Origin: Anaerolineae bacterium
GTDB lineage: Bacteria; Chloroflexota; Anaerolineae; Anaerolineales; Villigracilaceae
Direction: 5' to 3'
DNA: 64,000 nucleotides
Assembly: GCA_003130845.1 (NCBI GenBank)
Contig: QEXW01000099.1
Coordinates: 1-64,000 of the forward strand
Below are positions 53,258-59,487 of the stretch, piece by piece. The notes beneath the pieces are model-generated. The model was not told the origin of the DNA. It worked only from the letters and a program-made list of their open reading frames with translations, and made no database searches. The position numbers and the translations under genes were made by a program. How positions within the stretch are numbered: position 1 is the stretch's first letter; the number at the start of each line of letters is the position of its first letter.

Positions 53258-56200
53258 TCAATTTTCACGGTTGCTGGTCATGGTGATTAATTCCACCACT
53301 GTTGTTTGCCAATCCAATGGAGGGGCAGCGCTAATTTGTGCTTGCACACTTTCGGGTGTCATCTGCCACTCAGCAATCATTTGTTCTGCGAGACGCTCCA
53401 AATCGCTGCTAAAGGCAGGTTGCCGGCGCACAAGACCAAGCAGACTAAAAGCACGCGCCTGCTCACCACGCGCATAGAATAAGCGAGCATAAAACAAAAC
53501 CGCTGCCGCCGTCCAGGGCGCCGCACCAAGATGATGGGCCAGTGCCAATCCCTCCCGCAAATGATTGTCTGCTTCTTGGAGTTGTCCCAACCGAATTTCG
53601 CTGTGTCCAAGATTGACCAGGTATAGCGCCAGCGATTGTTGGGCACCGATTTCACGCGCCATTTCAATGGCTTGCAGGTAATAGCTCTGTGCTTTGAGTA
53701 GGTCACCACGTTCATCGGCCAACGCACCCAGATTGTTGAGTGTCACAGCCGCGCGTTCGCGGTTACCCACCGAAACCGCCAGAGAAAGGGCTTGCTGGTA
53801 TAGTTCCTCCTCCGCTGCTGAATCGCCCAAAACACCCATCAATACTCCCAAGCGGTTGAGTGACATCAAAAGCGTATAGGTATCTCCAATTTGGTGGGCC
53901 AGGGTGCGGCTTTCTTCACAAAACGTGCGTGCTTGGTGAGGGTTTCCTAAACGCCAATAAACATTTCCTAACCCATACAAGATACGCGCCAAGGTTGACC
54001 GGGCAGGAATGCCTGCCATGCGCGCCATAGGCAGTGCTTGCTGCAAGATGTTTTCAGCCTTGGCATAATCGCCCATTTCGGCGTACAGATGCCCCAACTG
54101 GCTTAGGCACGCAGCCAGCATGATGCTACTGGAAAGTTCTCGCGCCAGGCTCAATGCTTTTTCCGTGCTCTTAATCGAGTGGCTAAACTCACCGGCACGA
54201 TAAAACGCCTCGCCAATTTTTAAGTGAATGTGCGCCAGGTCACGCGTCTGGCGAGGATGAATTAGCGGCAAAGCACGCTGGAAAAAGCGAAAGGCCTCGT
54301 CAAAAGCGCTCAGACTCAAAGCGCGTTCCCCGGCTTCCAGCAAGACGGCTACGGCGCGGTCATGGTCCCCTGCTTTTTCGTAGTGTTCGGCAATTGCAGC
54401 GAGATATTCACCGCGTCGTTCACCACTGGCTTTGCTCAGCCATTCGGCCACCAGGGCATGGTATTGTTGGCGATGCCGCTTCAGCACGGTTTCATACGTC
54501 ACATCCCGTAAAAGGGCATGCTTGAAGGCATATTCTTGTGTGCCATCAAAGGTCGAATCTGGGCTGTGATAGATTAATTCTTTAGAACGCAAGGCTTCTA
54601 ACGATTCTTCGAGCCGTTCTGGGGTGGATTCGGTTTCTGGACTGAGCGCTTTCAAGGCACTATCCCAAAAGACGCGCCCCACCACCGAAGCACGTTGCAA
54701 CGAAGCCCGTTCAAACAGACCCAGGCGGTCTAAACGAGCCTGCAAAACGCCCGAAAGCGTGGGAGGGATAGTCAGGCCTTCCAGGCGGTCGAGTTCGATT
54801 TCCCAGGTGGTATCGCCCGGCCGGATGACCTGATTATCTATCAGCATCTTAAGCAGTTCTTCCAAATAAAATGGATTACCTTCTGCGCCCTCTACGACCA
54901 GGTCGCGCAATGCAGCAGGAACGAGCCGGGCTTTACGCAAGATTTGGGCCACCAATTCACGACTATCCGCCGGCTGCAGGGGTTTCAACTCCAACTTTTG
55001 GGCAGATGAAAAACCCAAGCCCCAATCAGGAAAACGCTCAAATAAGGAGGGCCGAGCGGCGCCAATGATGAGAAAGGGGGTAGATGTGGGCAAGTTTGTA
55101 CACAGGTACATCAACGCCTCGAGAGAGCCTCGGTCCGCCCAATGAATATCATCGGCAATCAAAAGTACCGGGTACGTCTCGGCAACAGTTACGAAAAAAC
55201 GGGCCAAAGTATTGAAGCCTAAACTGCGCAGTTGCTTGGGGTCTTGCAAAACGCCACGCAGGTACGGGCTGGCTGAAAAATCAAACCCTGTCAATTGCCC
55301 AACGATATGTGCTTTTTCAATGGCACGTTCGTCCTCGGGGAGGAATTCGATAAACCCACGTTCCATTTTTTGATGAACGATGGAGAGCGAATCGCTATCT
55401 TGAATCTGGAAACGAAAAGAGAAAATATCGCGCCACAGTGCATACGGCGTGGTCGTGTCGGAGGGGTGAGAGCGTCCCTGAAAGAGGTAGAAATCCTCGG
55501 GCAAAGGGTCGGTCCAAGCCAGCAATTCATGCAGCAAACGGCTTTTGCCCAGGCCCATTTCACCAATCAGAGTAAGCAAACGCAGAGGATGCCGGCGAAA
55601 CAAGCGGCGAAATGAATCTTTGAGTGTGTCGAGTTCAATCTGGCGGCCTACCAGTGAGGTCTCTACCCCCTCTACACCTCGCATTTCGGTCAGCCGAAAG
55701 GCGCGCGGTTTGACGTCCTGCACCAAGTAGGTTTGCACCGGCTCTCGCTTGCCTTTCAGATTTAAGGGAGGTTGAATGGACACTTCAAAGATGCCCCGCA
55801 CCAAGCGGTAGGTATCGTGTGTAATCAGAAGTTGACCGGGCTGGGCAACAGCATTCAGGCGCGCCGCCAGATTGACAGTATCCCCCAGGGCTGTAAATTC
55901 GCCGGTTGCGCCAAGAGGTCCCACAATCACCGGGCCGGTGTTAATTCCCACGCGCAAAGACAGTTCCTGACCAAAAGGCGTTGGCAGCGTCTTCAGGGTT
56001 TCATGCATCACAAGCCCGGCGCGAATGGCTTGTTCAGCATCATCTTCACGTACCACTTCTGCTCCCCACAATGCCATCACGCCATCAGCAGTGTGCTTAT
56101 CTATACGTCCCCCATGTTTGAGGATAATCGCATCCAATTGCTCCCAAAGCGAATTGACAATCTGCAGGTCCTCCGCTTCCAGGGTTTCTTCGATGGTAGA

Positions 56201-56404
56201 CAGGCTCGGAAAATCAGCAAAGAGAACAGTCACCAGTTTGCGCTGACGTACCTCGTTAGACAGTTCTCCGCTGGTCTGAGAGAGCATTTTCAGCTTCTCT
56301 CGCAAGGGCGCAAGGGCAGTATCTACAACCGAATCGCCCAAGACGGTGCGCTGTGCTTCCAGTGCGGCGATGGCTTGTTCAAGTTTTTCAATTTCGGTGG
56401 ACAT
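53258..56404 (-). CDS. Class III cyclase-domain protein with AAA ATPase and TPR repeats
   Basis: 1048 residues from the ATG at 56404; a GTG three codons earlier directly abuts the previous stop. Residues ~1-55 are a coiled coil. Residues ~58-200 are an adenylate/guanylate cyclase domain: VTVLFADFPS with a metal Asp, and KHTADGVMALWG with the second, so catalysis is plausible. Residues ~250-600 are an AAA/STAND-type ATPase (Walker A GEMGLGKSRLLHE; Walker B-like VLLIADDIHWAD). The C-terminal ~370 residues are about nine TPR repeats (LGHLYAEMGDYAKAENILQQ). Such proteins are signalling hubs; the cyclic nucleotide and signal are unknown. It is the last gene of a six-gene unit. Confidence 0.88.
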   Translation of the reverse strand: MSTEIEKLEQAIAALEAQRTVLGDSVVDTALAPLREKLKMLSQTSGELSNEVRQRKLVTVLFADFPSLSTIEETLEAEDLQIVNSLWEQLDAIILKHGGRIDKHTADGVMALWGAEVVREDDAEQAIRAGLVMHETLKTLPTPFGQELSLRVGINTGPVIVGPLGATGEFTALGDTVNLAARLNAVAQPGQLLITHDTYRLVRGIFEVSIQPPLNLKGKREPVQTYLVQDVKPRAFRLTEMRGVEGVETSLVGRQIELDTLKDSFRRLFRRHPLRLLTLIGEMGLGKSRLLHELLAWTDPLPEDFYLFQGRSHPSDTTTPYALWRDIFSFRFQIQDSDSLSIVHQKMERGFIEFLPEDERAIEKAHIVGQLTGFDFSASPYLRGVLQDPKQLRSLGFNTLARFFVTVAETYPVLLIADDIHWADRGSLEALMYLCTNLPTSTPFLIIGAARPSLFERFPDWGLGFSSAQKLELKPLQPADSRELVAQILRKARLVPAALRDLVVEGAEGNPFYLEELLKMLIDNQVIRPGDTTWEIELDRLEGLTIPPTLSGVLQARLDRLGLFERASLQRASVVGRVFWDSALKALSPETESTPERLEESLEALRSKELIYHSPDSTFDGTQEYAFKHALLRDVTYETVLKRHRQQYHALVAEWLSKASGERRGEYLAAIAEHYEKAGDHDRAVAVLLEAGERALSLSAFDEAFRFFQRALPLIHPRQTRDLAHIHLKIGEAFYRAGEFSHSIKSTEKALSLARELSSSIMLAACLSQLGHLYAEMGDYAKAENILQQALPMARMAGIPARSTLARILYGLGNVYWRLGNPHQARTFCEESRTLAHQIGDTYTLLMSLNRLGVLMGVLGDSAAEEELYQQALSLAVSVGNRERAAVTLNNLGALADERGDLLKAQSYYLQAIEMAREIGAQQSLALYLVNLGHSEIRLGQLQEADNHLREGLALAHHLGAAPWTAAAVLFYARLFYARGEQARAFSLLGLVRRQPAFSSDLERLAEQMIAEWQMTPESVQAQISAAPPLDWQTTVVELITMTSNREN

Positions 56405-56413
56405 GTTTGCCAC

Positions 56414-56683
56414 TCATTGTGAAAAAGCAACTAAGACACCATATACAACCGAAGTCAGCAGGCTGATGATGGATAAAGCAATCCCAACCTGGGCCATACG
56501 TGGGTTATCGGCACGCAAGCCCACAAGTCCTAAACCAATTCCTGCCAAGCTCAGAGAACCACCACACATCGGCACCAGCGCCGCACACAGGCTAAAGAGG
56601 CCCAACGCCACCGACCCCATCGCCAAGTAGCGGTTGGTCTTTTCTTCTGGGTCAAGGCTGCTGTAATCTGGTTCGATGGACAT
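56414..56683 (-). CDS. Small membrane protein, DUF4190-like
   Basis: 89 residues from the ATG with CTGGAGAACGAC upstream. A polar N-terminus (DPEEKTNRY) precedes two hydrophobic segments separated by a Gly-rich GGSLSLAGIGLGLVGLRADN, which gives the typical DUF4190 pattern. Its function is unknown. It is in the unit between the nucleotidyltransferase and the cyclase-AAA gene, and its stop codon directly precedes the cyclase start. Confidence 0.6.
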   Translation of the reverse strand: MSIEPDYSSLDPEEKTNRYLAMGSVALGLFSLCAALVPMCGGSLSLAGIGLGLVGLRADNPRMAQVGIALSIISLLTSVVYGVLVAFSQ

Positions 56684-56716
56684 GTCGTTCTCCAGATTTT
56701 GTGAGTATAGCACACC

Positions 56717-57904
56717 TCAAGACGAAGCAGAGAAATCTGGGAAAAGAATGTGAGAGAGAGAAAACAGACGGCGAAACAAAGCCCAACTCATTAAATGCAC
56801 CAGACGCAAACGATATCCAACATGGGCATGCCAAAAGACAGAGCCTTCATCCAAACCATAGTACAGTCGAAGCCACCATTCAGGAGGCGGGGCAAAAGTC
56901 ATTCCTACGTAGCGCCAAAACCCAACCTGTCGCCAGTTGGGAAACGGCCATTGTGGCCAGCCTTGCGGGTACTGCCCTAAGCGACCCATCGGCGCAGGTG
57001 ACTTGAGAGAAAGCAGGGTTGCCAGCCCATCGGGTGCAGGGCCCAGGCTATATAAAACGGAAAGCCGCTTCAAAAAAAGCGGGTCACGTTGAAGAAGGGT
57101 TTTCCAATCTAGCGCAGGTGCCCATTTTTCAACACAACCAATCATGTCAGCCATCCACTTAAACGATATAGGCCGATTGAGGCGCGAATCGAACAAGTGC
57201 CGGACAAAGTGACGCATGAGGTAATGTAACGTATCGAGTGGAGCAGTGGTATAGACATAGCCACCTGCAATGGTTAGCCGAAGCGGCGGTTCAGTAAAAT
57301 CTCGAAACTCATCATCGGGGGAATAATCATTCAACACCCGGTGGGTTGGATCGTAATGATGTAGCTCAATCTGCACTGAAACGCCCTGGCGGAGCGGTGC
57401 CTGACCACTGATTCCTTTGGGCAAATGCACTGCGCCAGACGAAAAAGATTGAAACTGATAACCAGCGGCCTGCAAGGCAGTCATTGCCGGCAATATGTGT
57501 TCTTTGGGGAGGAATAAGTCCAGGTCACTGACTGGGCGTAAAGCCGGGTCCGGATAGACTTGCCAAGCCAGTGCCAGCCCTTTTAACACGAAAGGACGCA
57601 TGTTGCGTCTATCCAAAATCTCCAGCGTATCGAGCAAAGTCTGGGTGTGAATCTGGGTGAGGGCGCGTTCACGTAAATACAAACCTTGCAGCGCACGGCG
57701 CGTGTGGACCGGAATGGGTGCTTCACGCAGGTGATACCACAGCAACGGTCCTAAGCCGTGCCGTTCTGCTTGGGCGGGCAAGGTATCCCAGGCAGAAAAA
57801 TCGCGCAACAAGGCCGTCAATTGCTCATCAAAACTTGCATGCCGCTCCACCCGCGCACACAGAGCCAGCAATTGATATGTTTGACTCAAACTTGTTGCAT
57901 CCAT
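56717..57904 (-). CDS. Nucleotidyltransferase-like protein (PF14907 type)
   Basis: 395 residues. The middle contains MRPFVLKGLALAWQVY and then RPVSDLDLFLPKEHI, where the DLD is the metal-binding pair of the nucleotidyltransferase fold. This family (uncharacterised nucleotidyltransferase, PF14907) is often found in lasso-peptide and related RiPP clusters, next to HprK-like kinases. Its first 19 bp overlap the end of the kinase gene, so they are tightly coupled. It could transfer a nucleotide to a peptide or small protein; the target is not known. Confidence 0.8.
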   Translation of the reverse strand: MDATSLSQTYQLLALCARVERHASFDEQLTALLRDFSAWDTLPAQAERHGLGPLLWYHLREAPIPVHTRRALQGLYLRERALTQIHTQTLLDTLEILDRRNMRPFVLKGLALAWQVYPDPALRPVSDLDLFLPKEHILPAMTALQAAGYQFQSFSSGAVHLPKGISGQAPLRQGVSVQIELHHYDPTHRVLNDYSPDDEFRDFTEPPLRLTIAGGYVYTTAPLDTLHYLMRHFVRHLFDSRLNRPISFKWMADMIGCVEKWAPALDWKTLLQRDPLFLKRLSVLYSLGPAPDGLATLLSLKSPAPMGRLGQYPQGWPQWPFPNWRQVGFWRYVGMTFAPPPEWWLRLYYGLDEGSVFWHAHVGYRLRLVHLMSWALFRRLFSLSHILFPDFSASS

Positions 57905-58707
57905 GCTGTCATGCTCTTCAGGTCAGAATATTCTACAGCATAAGCAGTCACGTGGCGCGCCAGATGCTTGGCAAGTTCCATGCCAAAAAAGGGCAAATTG
58001 CGGGCATTCACCAAGGTCTGCAACAAGCGAAACAAGCTTTCGGCCGGCGTGAGCGGGGTGACGCGCAGGGGGGAACCAGCCACATAGCGCGGAAACAGAA
58101 GCAGGCGGGGAACCGCTTGTGTACAAATTTCATTGGGGTTGAGCAAAGTCGGCTCAAGCCAGACGCTGCCATCCTTAAAGCGAAACATCTCTGGGCCTTC
58201 TGCTTGGCTCAAAACGGTCTGCCAGACAAAAGCCGCCCCCGGCTTAAGCACGAGCGAGCGCGCAAATCCGCTAATCCGTCCTGATTTCTCATATAGAATC
58301 ACTTCGTCGCTCAGGTATTGAAAGCCATTCGCAAGCAGCCAAGCCGTCAGGGTGGATTTTCCAGAGCCACTGGCCCCGCATAAAATGACCGCCCCGTGTG
58401 AATTGGCAACCGCAGCAGCGTGAAAGACCGCCCCCTGAACGCATGCGCCGTTGAGATGGGCAAGGCCCGCCTGCATCAACATCTGACAGGCTGTTTCATG
58501 CTCCAAACCAGAAAACAAAACACTGCCATTTTCAGAGATAGAAAACAGATTCTCAGAAATGGCAGTGAGATGAAATTGAGCCACGACTGGTTGCAAACCT
58601 GCTCGACAGTGTTTGAGATGGGTTGTAAGCAAGTCAAGAAAAGCTTTCGGCCGGGCATTCAATTCAACTGCATGGCCACCAAATTGGACAGAGAAAATGT
58701 CGTTCAA
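57886..58707 (-). CDS. HprK-like P-loop kinase
   Basis: 273 residues from a TTG that overlaps the PqqD-like stop (TTGA). The P-loop is CGASGSGKST at about residue 115, followed by DEVILY, the Asp-containing segment that is shared with HPr kinase/phosphorylase. The N-terminal ~100 residues are unlike bacterial HprK, and the canonical PTS regulator signature is absent. Kinases of this group in RiPP clusters phosphorylate the C-terminal Ser of lasso peptides (as reported for paeninodin). Here the substrate might be the Tat-exported protein or an unseen peptide. Confidence 0.8.
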   Translation of the reverse strand: MNDIFSVQFGGHAVELNARPKAFLDLLTTHLKHCRAGLQPVVAQFHLTAISENLFSISENGSVLFSGLEHETACQMLMQAGLAHLNGACVQGAVFHAAAVANSHGAVILCGASGSGKSTLTAWLLANGFQYLSDEVILYEKSGRISGFARSLVLKPGAAFVWQTVLSQAEGPEMFRFKDGSVWLEPTLLNPNEICTQAVPRLLLFPRYVAGSPLRVTPLTPAESLFRLLQTLVNARNLPFFGMELAKHLARHVTAYAVEYSDLKSMTAWMQQV

Positions 58708-58979
58708 GCAGTCGTTAGCGCTCCATGTTGCAGAAATTCTTGAATGATAGCAGGCACTTGCACGGCAATTTCTTCTTTTGAGTCAGGATAGGCCAAACCG
58801 AGCAAATCCACAATTTCAGCCACTGACCGTTTGCCGTCGCACAAAGTCCAGATAAGCGCACCGCTGCGATTGATGTAAACAATAAGATTGCGCGCCGGAT
58901 GAAGCAAGATAATTTCACCTGCTAGGTTTTCTAGCTGAAAGCCTTCCACCGGACAGGGAACGATAGTCCAGACATCCAT
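58704..58979 (-). CDS. PqqD-family peptide-binding (RRE) protein
   Basis: 91 residues. The sequence has the PqqD build: a three-stranded N-terminal sheet (GFQLENLAGEIILLHPAR), the conserved LIVYINRSGALIWTLCDG (an L-N-x-x-G-xxIW core) and then helices with RSVAEIVDLL. PqqD proteins are RiPP recognition elements that bind leader peptides and present them to modifying enzymes. The ATG starts 1 bp after the Tat-protein stop, and the gene overlaps the kinase by 4 bp. So it is likely the adaptor for this cassette. Confidence 0.9.
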   Translation of the reverse strand: MDVWTIVPCPVEGFQLENLAGEIILLHPARNLIVYINRSGALIWTLCDGKRSVAEIVDLLGLAYPDSKEEIAVQVPAIIQEFLQHGALTTA

Positions 58980-58980
58980 T

Positions 58981-59487
58981 TTAACAGCCAATCTCAATAT
59001 CGAAGGATTGTGTCACCGTGTTGGTGCCATCCGCCGGGTTGACGAAACTCCAGACGACGGTCAGGGTGCCGATGGTACCAAAGGAAGGGCTATCGGGTAA
59101 AACGGTGACATCTATGGACACTTGGCCGCTTCCATTGGTAGAGAGATTGCCCGTTGTAGGACTGGGAACTGTAATCGAACCACCTGGCCCCGATACGGTG
59201 TAACTCAGCGCGTATTGCAACAAAATGCCAGCGGTAGGGGGCGTAATGGCTGCCGTAAAGCGAATGATAATCCCCTCCCAACAGTAACTTTGCCCTAAGT
59301 CAATTTCTTGCGGCAAAACGGGTGTACTCAAAAAGTGCAGGGAGGAAGTTTGCGCGTGAACCGGAAGAACTCCCACCTGCAGTTCAGGTTTGGTCCAGGA
59401 GGAAGGCAAGTGAGAGATAGCCACCGCCCCGCTAGCAGCAGCCAATATTTTGAGGGCATCGCGACGTGATAGTTTAGATGTTGACAT
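58981..59487 (-). CDS. Tat-exported small protein with C-terminal Cys
   Basis: 168 residues from the ATG with AAAGGATGTACTC upstream. The Tat motif is SRRDALKILAAAS; the hydrophobic region is short and mild. It is followed by WTKPELQVGVLPVHAQTS, a segment of the kind repeatedly seen in Chloroflexota Tat proteins that sit beside PqqD genes. The mature part is a beta-rich Ig-like domain with Cys in YCWEG and a C-terminal GC end, which could form a disulfide. It is the first gene of the unit and probably the substrate or product of the kinase, nucleotidyltransferase and RRE proteins; this is an inference. Confidence 0.8.
   Translation of the reverse strand: MSTSKLSRRDALKILAAASGAVAISHLPSSWTKPELQVGVLPVHAQTSSLHFLSTPVLPQEIDLGQSYCWEGIIIRFTAAITPPTAGILLQYALSYTVSGPGGSITVPSPTTGNLSTNGSGQVSIDVTVLPDSPSFGTIGTLTVVWSFVNPADGTNTVTQSFDIEIGC

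Follow-up and report, generated by a model that had tools for sequence, protein, structure and literature searches.

A Tat signal as putative leader of an RRE-linked kinase and nucleotidyltransferase in Anaerolineae and other bacteria

The closest described systems tailor lasso peptides. For pseudomycoidin, an HprK-type kinase phosphorylates a serine, and a nucleotidyltransferase adds one or two hexoses to this phosphate (PMC8498205, PMC9266682), with true nucleotidylation remaining possible (PMC9266682). Lasso kinases require the residues H-K-D-D (PMC9266682). W/Y/LxxP is the recognition motif of a large multi-class group of recognition elements (RREs) for ribosomally synthesized and post-translationally modified peptides (RiPPs), which includes FusE, McjB and PqqD (PMC12710340). 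The enzymes, their teamwork in lasso tailoring and the NCBIfam family of HprK-related A-type kinases are already known. Here, a locus of an Anaerolineae bacterium (Villigracilaceae, assembly GCA_003130845.1) is described, located in forward-strand positions 1-64,000 of contig QEXW01000099.1 (the window). A PqqD-type RRE, an HprK-like kinase and a PF14907 nucleotidyltransferase are encoded there beside a protein with a twin-arginine translocation (Tat) signal, and sequence comparison indicates that they very probably act on this exported protein.

The four-gene unit and its distribution

The sequence-only reading had described positions 53258-59487 as a cassette of six genes. The six open reading frames (ORFs), all on the minus strand, and their junctions were confirmed by an ORF check, and the domain assignments (Tat, RRE, HprK-like, PF14907 and cyclase-AAA-TPR) hold in profile searches. 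As a cassette, the first four genes recur together elsewhere, whereas the last two lie outside the conserved unit. This unit, whose recurrence is beyond chance, consists of:

58981-59487, minus strand: Tat-exported leader protein of 168 amino acids, the proposed substrate (domain profiles; leader conserved in relatives)
58704-58979, minus strand: stand-alone PqqD-type RRE of 91 amino acids (PF05402 and PDB profile matches)
57886-58707, minus strand: HprK-related kinase of 273 amino acids (TIGR04352, E 2e-28; four invariant residues, H, K, D and E)
56717-57904, minus strand: PF14907 nucleotidyltransferase-fold enzyme of 395 amino acids (profile score, structure model and Foldseek)

The Tat gene is separated by a 1-bp gap from the RRE gene, which overlaps the HprK-like gene (TTG start) by 4 bp. 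The latter overlaps the nucleotidyltransferase gene by 19 bp.

A kinase search in 199 genomes of the same class, combined with a reading of the neighbourhoods, revealed the four genes together at further loci in several Anaerolineae families. Their order is shuffled, being Tat-nucleotidyltransferase-PqqD-HprK in L040 and nucleotidyltransferase-PqqD-HprK-Tat in L038, and because the partners are retained despite this, a functional link between the four genes is suggested. In L034, the contig end was reached before any nucleotidyltransferase gene could be seen. Within the family of the window's organism, the leader was found in 6 of 7 kinase-bearing genomes vs. 0 of 11 without the kinase (p 4e-4); in the seventh (L242), the contig ends shortly behind the PqqD gene.

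A leader profile was built from seven leaders, and matches with E <= 1e-8 were counted as strong. Strong matches were found in 12 of the 199 genomes, including all nine with an HprK_rel_A score of at least 70 bits (hypergeometric 2e-13), a statistic that is partly circular, as the kinase had led to the loci whose leaders seeded the profile, and seven of the nine kinase genomes are seeds. Independent cases in the class are G012 and G097, with the leader beside the kinase, and G115, with a leader on another contig and without the AHA site. Likewise independent of the seeding are the dispersed leader copies, such as the extra leaders far from the three enzyme genes in G161, G021 and G011, and all loci outside Chloroflexota. 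Generic Tat signals of other genomes mostly match only the first part of the profile.

A kinase scan of 84,980 species genomes yielded 80 loci, 48 of them with HprK and PqqD, the other 32 being further HprK loci. A leader protein was present within the fetched flank at 35 of the 48 HprK and PqqD loci vs. none of the 32 others (Fisher 4e-12). The loci outside Chloroflexota were found through the kinase, and profiles from Chloroflexota seeds alone were used to find the leaders in other phyla. Such leaders lie beside the three enzyme genes in Gammaproteobacteria, Betaproteobacteria, Bradyrhizobium, Oricola and Desulfobulbales, and the four genes recur in Chloroflexota, Desulfobacterota and Alpha-, Beta- and Gammaproteobacteria. 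The sequence-only reading had made its proposal dependent on the Tat gene accompanying the others; it does so across phyla, and the proposal withstood this check.

Whole-genome leader searches in 28 organisms revealed leaders in 24, eight of which have an enzyme locus with none adjacent. No leader was found in the remaining four genomes searched, those of Rheinheimera, Aestuariibacter, Marisediminitalea and an Acidobacterium. The highest number was seen in Desulforhopalus singaporensis, where ten leaders matched on nine contigs; one is interrupted by internal stops, and their mature parts are unrelated. The genome of the window contains a single strong leader, the dispersed substrates being those of other genomes. 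Among viral contigs, no relative of the window Tat protein was found.

Leader motif, position +3 and catalytic residues

The following elements were assigned in the Tat protein:

59461-59466, minus strand: twin arginines R8-R9 of the Tat signal, shared by all 25 diverse leaders compared
59353-59406, minus strand: leader motif P28xxW31xxP34x(7)P42xHA45 (PSSWTKPELQVGVLPVHA), proposed RRE-recognition element and signal-peptidase site (leader alignment)
59344-59346, minus strand: Ser48, three residues past the predicted cleavage site, the proposed modified residue
58990-59334, minus strand: mature domain (residues 52-166), predicted all-beta sandwich (AlphaFold2, blocks mostly with pLDDT, the predicted local distance difference test, of 79-97)

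The protein shows an RR motif, a hydrophobic stretch and an AxA site, and a TatC gene is found in the genome. It scores 18.5 bits with the TAT signal profile TIGR01409, above the NCBIfam cut-off of 16.7, and 18.4 bits with the Pfam Tat profile, under the cut-off of 22.7. When the Tat proteins are aligned, about 45 conserved N-terminal residues are followed by unrelated remainders. The leader consensus runs from SRRxxLK over the hydrophobic stretch to PxxWxxPx(7)PxHA and, behind the predicted cut, xx[S/T]; in the window protein the cut is predicted after A45, between AHA and QTS. Relative to this site, all 48 distinct leaders have W at -15, P at -12 and -4 and A at -1; the letters but not the exact spacing were part of the search pattern.

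Since WxxP or YxxP at a fixed place matches the published RRE motif, the Tat signal is read as an RRE leader, and the Tat protein would then be the missing precursor. The window leader carries WxxPxL, corresponding to the YxxP-type leader motif of lasso clusters, and the combination of a conserved leader with a variable core in RRE-linked precursors is that of RRE-dependent RiPP-type systems. In other Chloroflexota classes the kinase adjoins Tat proteins with YVKPSV, YVKPSL and YVTPTL (L236, L239 and L235), i.e., YxxPx[LV], which by its sequence is the lasso-like spelling of the same motif. These genes are located at L236:6958-8772 (-), L239:4920-5561 (+) and L235:6526-7221 (-); two of the proteins have Ser/Pro- or Thr/Pro-rich stretches behind the motif, and L236 holds a tandem pair. 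Tat proteins without a W/YxxP motif occur beside the kinase and a PF14907 enzyme at L241:6896-7585 (-) and L243:8104-8790 (-). They share QAIQTFGV-like and CSMCIENS stretches and are a possible third substrate class.

All 73 distinct leader proteins have Ser or Thr at +3, a position outside the search pattern. At positions nearby, Ser or Thr was counted in 3-47 of the 73 proteins (3 at +1 and 6 at +4). Behind the leader the tails are hypervariable and consist of unrelated folded domains or Thr/Pro-rich stretches. A fixed leader and an invariant +3 hydroxyl residue in front of an unrelated remainder therefore suggest a leader/core logic. A C-terminal Cys (IEIGC), considered as a general modification site, was rejected, since it is common in close relatives and absent in others.

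The cargo domains among the leader proteins comprise the beta sandwich of the window protein, F5/8-type C domains, NHL repeats and a Peptidase_S74 chaperone domain, and the mature parts look like surface or extracellular proteins. For the model of the window domain, Foldseek gave nothing at E below 1e-3 and no confident PDB match, so that no function can be taken from its fold. In Arenicellales, two leader proteins (L223:1552-2469 and L226:1505-2305, both +) combine a Thr/Pro linker with a C-terminal Peptidase_S74 (endosialidase chaperone), as in phage tail fibres; in L226 this is a Pfam match, in L223 a similar sequence. Very short leader proteins with near-pure Thr/Ala/Pro tails, up to three in tandem, are found beside HprK-glycosyltransferase fusions at L074, L078, L089, L097, L099 and L101.

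The RRE scores 50.5 bits with PqqD PF05402 (cut-off 23.4) and 42.7 bits with PqqD TIGR03859, under the cut-off of 46. A profile search against the PDB found PqqC/D, PqqD and the lasso RRE TbiB1. Two further weak PF05402 matches (L248, L249) occur in the same genome in frames of 430 and 502 amino acids (G000:C53:27335-35187), about 5-7 kb from the TatC gene.

The kinase is clearly related to HprK_rel_A TIGR04352 (99.4 bits, under the equivalog cut-off of 200). Its P-loop is intact, and H96, K117, D134 and E135 are invariant among aligned relatives. The nucleotidyltransferase reaches 122.5 bits with NTP_transf_5 PF14907 (cut-off 31.2); its structure model has a pLDDT of 90.6, and the best Foldseek matches include the nucleotidyltransferases ANT(2'')-Ia and MenT1. 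An alignment of 21 homologues shows D127, D129 and E180 without variation. The catalytic elements are located as follows:

58354-58377, minus strand: kinase P-loop GASGSGKS (alignment; conserved in relatives)
57518-57526, minus strand: catalytic D127-L-D129 of the nucleotidyltransferase, with E180 at 57365-57367 (homologue alignment)

In several Proteobacteria, HprK is fused to Glycos_transf_2, in two cases also to GT25.

Proposed mechanism and alternative explanations

The idea that a lasso-type toolbox acts on a Tat-exported protein gained from the co-occurrence across phyla and from the RRE motif inside the Tat signal, while its cyclase hub had to be given up. The four genes probably form an export-coupled protein-modification system. 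In the cytoplasm, the PqqD-type RRE would bind WxxP in the extended c-region of the neighbouring protein's Tat signal and bring the kinase and the PF14907 enzyme to this protein. The kinase would phosphorylate the invariant Ser/Thr three residues past the signal-peptidase site, here Ser48, and the PF14907 enzyme, elsewhere a fused glycosyltransferase, would add a sugar to the phosphate; in Thr-rich tails, perhaps several Thr would be modified. The folded protein would then be exported by Tat and cut between AHA and QTS, so that the Tat signal would serve as leader and export signal and one cut would remove both. Several substrates encoded elsewhere in a genome may be served by the same enzymes.

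With the co-occurrence, the leader motif, the invariant +3 hydroxyl residue, the conserved catalytic residues (in the kinase with E at the last position) and the glycosyltransferase fusions read directly from the sequences, there is good support for the Tat protein as substrate; from there we infer that the RRE binds the leader, which residue is modified, by what chemistry and when, and that the products have a surface role. The presence of TatC and the absence of a B2-type protease in this genome also count in favour. As end product, phosphorylation followed by glycosylation seems better supported than nucleotidylation because of the kinase-glycosyltransferase fusions, the Thr-rich substrates and the example of pseudomycoidin. 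A wider reading is put forward tentatively, and we hold it to be somewhat less likely true than false: a widespread post-translational system would use the Tat signal a second time, as a RiPP-style leader, and would attach a glycan via phosphate to an invariant Ser/Thr at the N-terminus of whole folded secreted proteins, of which a genome may encode several. The glycan could act as surface anchor or coat, with a logic like that of the lipoprotein +1 Cys.

Several observations, besides the partly circular statistic of the class, weigh against the proposed modification system. At thirteen of the 48 HprK and PqqD loci a leader is missing from the neighbourhood, and a search of the whole genome behind Acidobacteria locus L100 gave none either. 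Many of the surveyed genomes are metagenome-assembled. The last catalytic position of the kinase is E instead of D (among the relatives scanned, DE was found in 41 and DD in 15), and the phosphorylated residue of lasso peptides is a C-terminal Ser, whereas here it would be N-terminal. Finally, the +3 Ser could instead serve recognition or processing.

This last point leads to the alternative that survives best, although it is rather unlikely: the enzymes may modify the leader protein in its variable tail, e.g., in Thr/Pro-rich stretches, with Ser+3 acting as a recognition or processing signal. Thr-rich tails indeed accompany the genomes with kinase-glycosyltransferase fusions (median Thr 0.45 vs. 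0.14, p 2e-7), and T/P-rich linkers stand right behind the signal in several folded substrates (L169, L170, L224 and L226). However, many substrates, including the window protein, lack a Thr-rich stretch, though their +3 position is invariant.

A role of the PqqD-like protein in Tat proofreading is improbable; as a chaperone, it would hold the signal until folding and be regulated by the kinase and the nucleotidyltransferase while the cargo stays unmodified. The overlap of the conserved element with the Tat signal and the presumed export of the cargo would fit such a role, but the invariant Ser/Thr past the cleavage site, the glycosyltransferase fusions and the Thr-rich tails would be left unexplained.

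Still less credit is given to a lasso or other RiPP pathway, in which a short peptide from another part of the genome would be tailored by the three enzymes, with the Tat protein as a bystander. Lasso clusters are known to contain RREs, HprK proteins and nucleotidyltransferases (PMC8498205, PMC7533575), and some alphaproteobacterial leader proteins are short, with Thr/Pro tails of 14-66 residues. Against this stand the recognition motif borne by the Tat leader gene and its co-occurrence with the enzyme genes across phyla. As the sequence-only reading had stated, the six-gene cassette contains neither a lasso cyclase nor a B2 protease nor a short precursor; a PF13471 (B2-type) protease gave no match at E <= 1e-3 in the whole genome, and an asparagine-synthetase-like cyclase is absent among the six genes, a genome-wide search for it not having been made.

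The remaining two genes of the cassette follow the nucleotidyltransferase gene after a 33-bp gap. The membrane protein gene (56683-56414) directly abuts the cyclase-AAA-TPR gene (56413-53258, GTG start), whose alternative ATG at 56404 would leave 9 bp between them. The encoded protein combines Guanylate_cyc, AAA_16 and TPR domains and belongs to a multi-copy family: of 18 matches in the genome, three others are long (E <= 1e-100). With TIGR03903, the TOMM kinase/cyclase family, it shares sequence similarity (E 2e-75, under the cut-off). Near the 48 HprK and PqqD loci, a single cyclase relative (L098, opposite strand) was found and none of the membrane protein; the membership of the small membrane protein and the signalling hub proposed earlier are thus not supported, and a signalling role of the cyclase-AAA-TPR protein was rejected. 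A six-gene signalling cassette with this protein as output, for which the gene order and close spacing in the window speak, is hardly credible, as neither gene is conserved with the three enzymes and the cyclase protein comes from a multi-copy family.

Implications and comparison with known systems

If the proposed system is real, RRE-guided modification would reach beyond small natural-product peptides and become a general multi-substrate route for folded exported proteins, spanning at least Chloroflexota, Desulfobacterota and Proteobacteria. It would provide substrates for the orphan HprK-related A-type kinase family and for the 'uncharacterised' nucleotidyltransferase family PF14907, and a new leader class, a Tat signal with WxxP, together with one exact candidate residue. 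Cultured hosts exist in Desulfofustis glycolicus DSM 9705 and Desulforhopalus singaporensis DSM 12130, which makes it directly testable. In the open-access papers searched, whose silence is no proof, no description of Tat proteins as substrates, of the leader motif or of the +3 residue was found, nor a paper joining these terms or naming HPr-rel-A/TIGR04352.

With PqqD of pyrroloquinoline quinone (PQQ) biosynthesis, the system shares the RRE fold and the W/Y/LxxP recognition group. Unlike there, the TIGR03859 score is below the cut-off and no PqqE-like enzyme is among the cassette genes. In the DUF2063 RRE and DUF2282 precursor systems, the RRE-linked precursor likewise has an export signal, either in front of its leader or as the leader itself (PMC12710340), but this signal is of the Sec type and has no specific recognition motif, whereas the window system has a Tat signal, a fixed motif and other enzymes.

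The NCBIfam HprK-related kinase A (TIGR04352) of Rheinheimera belongs to the same kinase superfamily and has a PF14907-like enzyme next to it in some loci; the Rheinheimera kinase scores 330 with this profile, the window kinase far less. In Rheinheimera and Aestuariibacter, HprK_rel_A likewise adjoins a Tat protein, there with an (S)LPxxSVWA signal end. Such Tat genes are located at L103:6820-7452 (+) and L110:6787-7467 (+) and in relatives. Unlike the window system, these loci have no PqqD match, and the Rheinheimera, Aestuariibacter and Marisediminitalea genomes searched are without a WxxP leader.

The phosphorylated and phosphoglycosylated lasso peptides (paeninodin PadeK, ThcoK/SyanK, pseudomycoidin PsmK/PsmN) share with the locus the stand-alone PqqD-type RRE, the HprK-type kinase, the nucleotidyltransferase and a YxxP/WxxP-type leader motif, and Ser is the acceptor in them. 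The differences are that the cassette has no lasso cyclase or B2 protease and that the proposed substrate is Tat-exported and often folded; its leader is predicted to be removed by signal peptidase, several dispersed substrates exist, and a conserved Ser lies near the mature N-terminus. The system would thus be a variant of RRE-guided modification.

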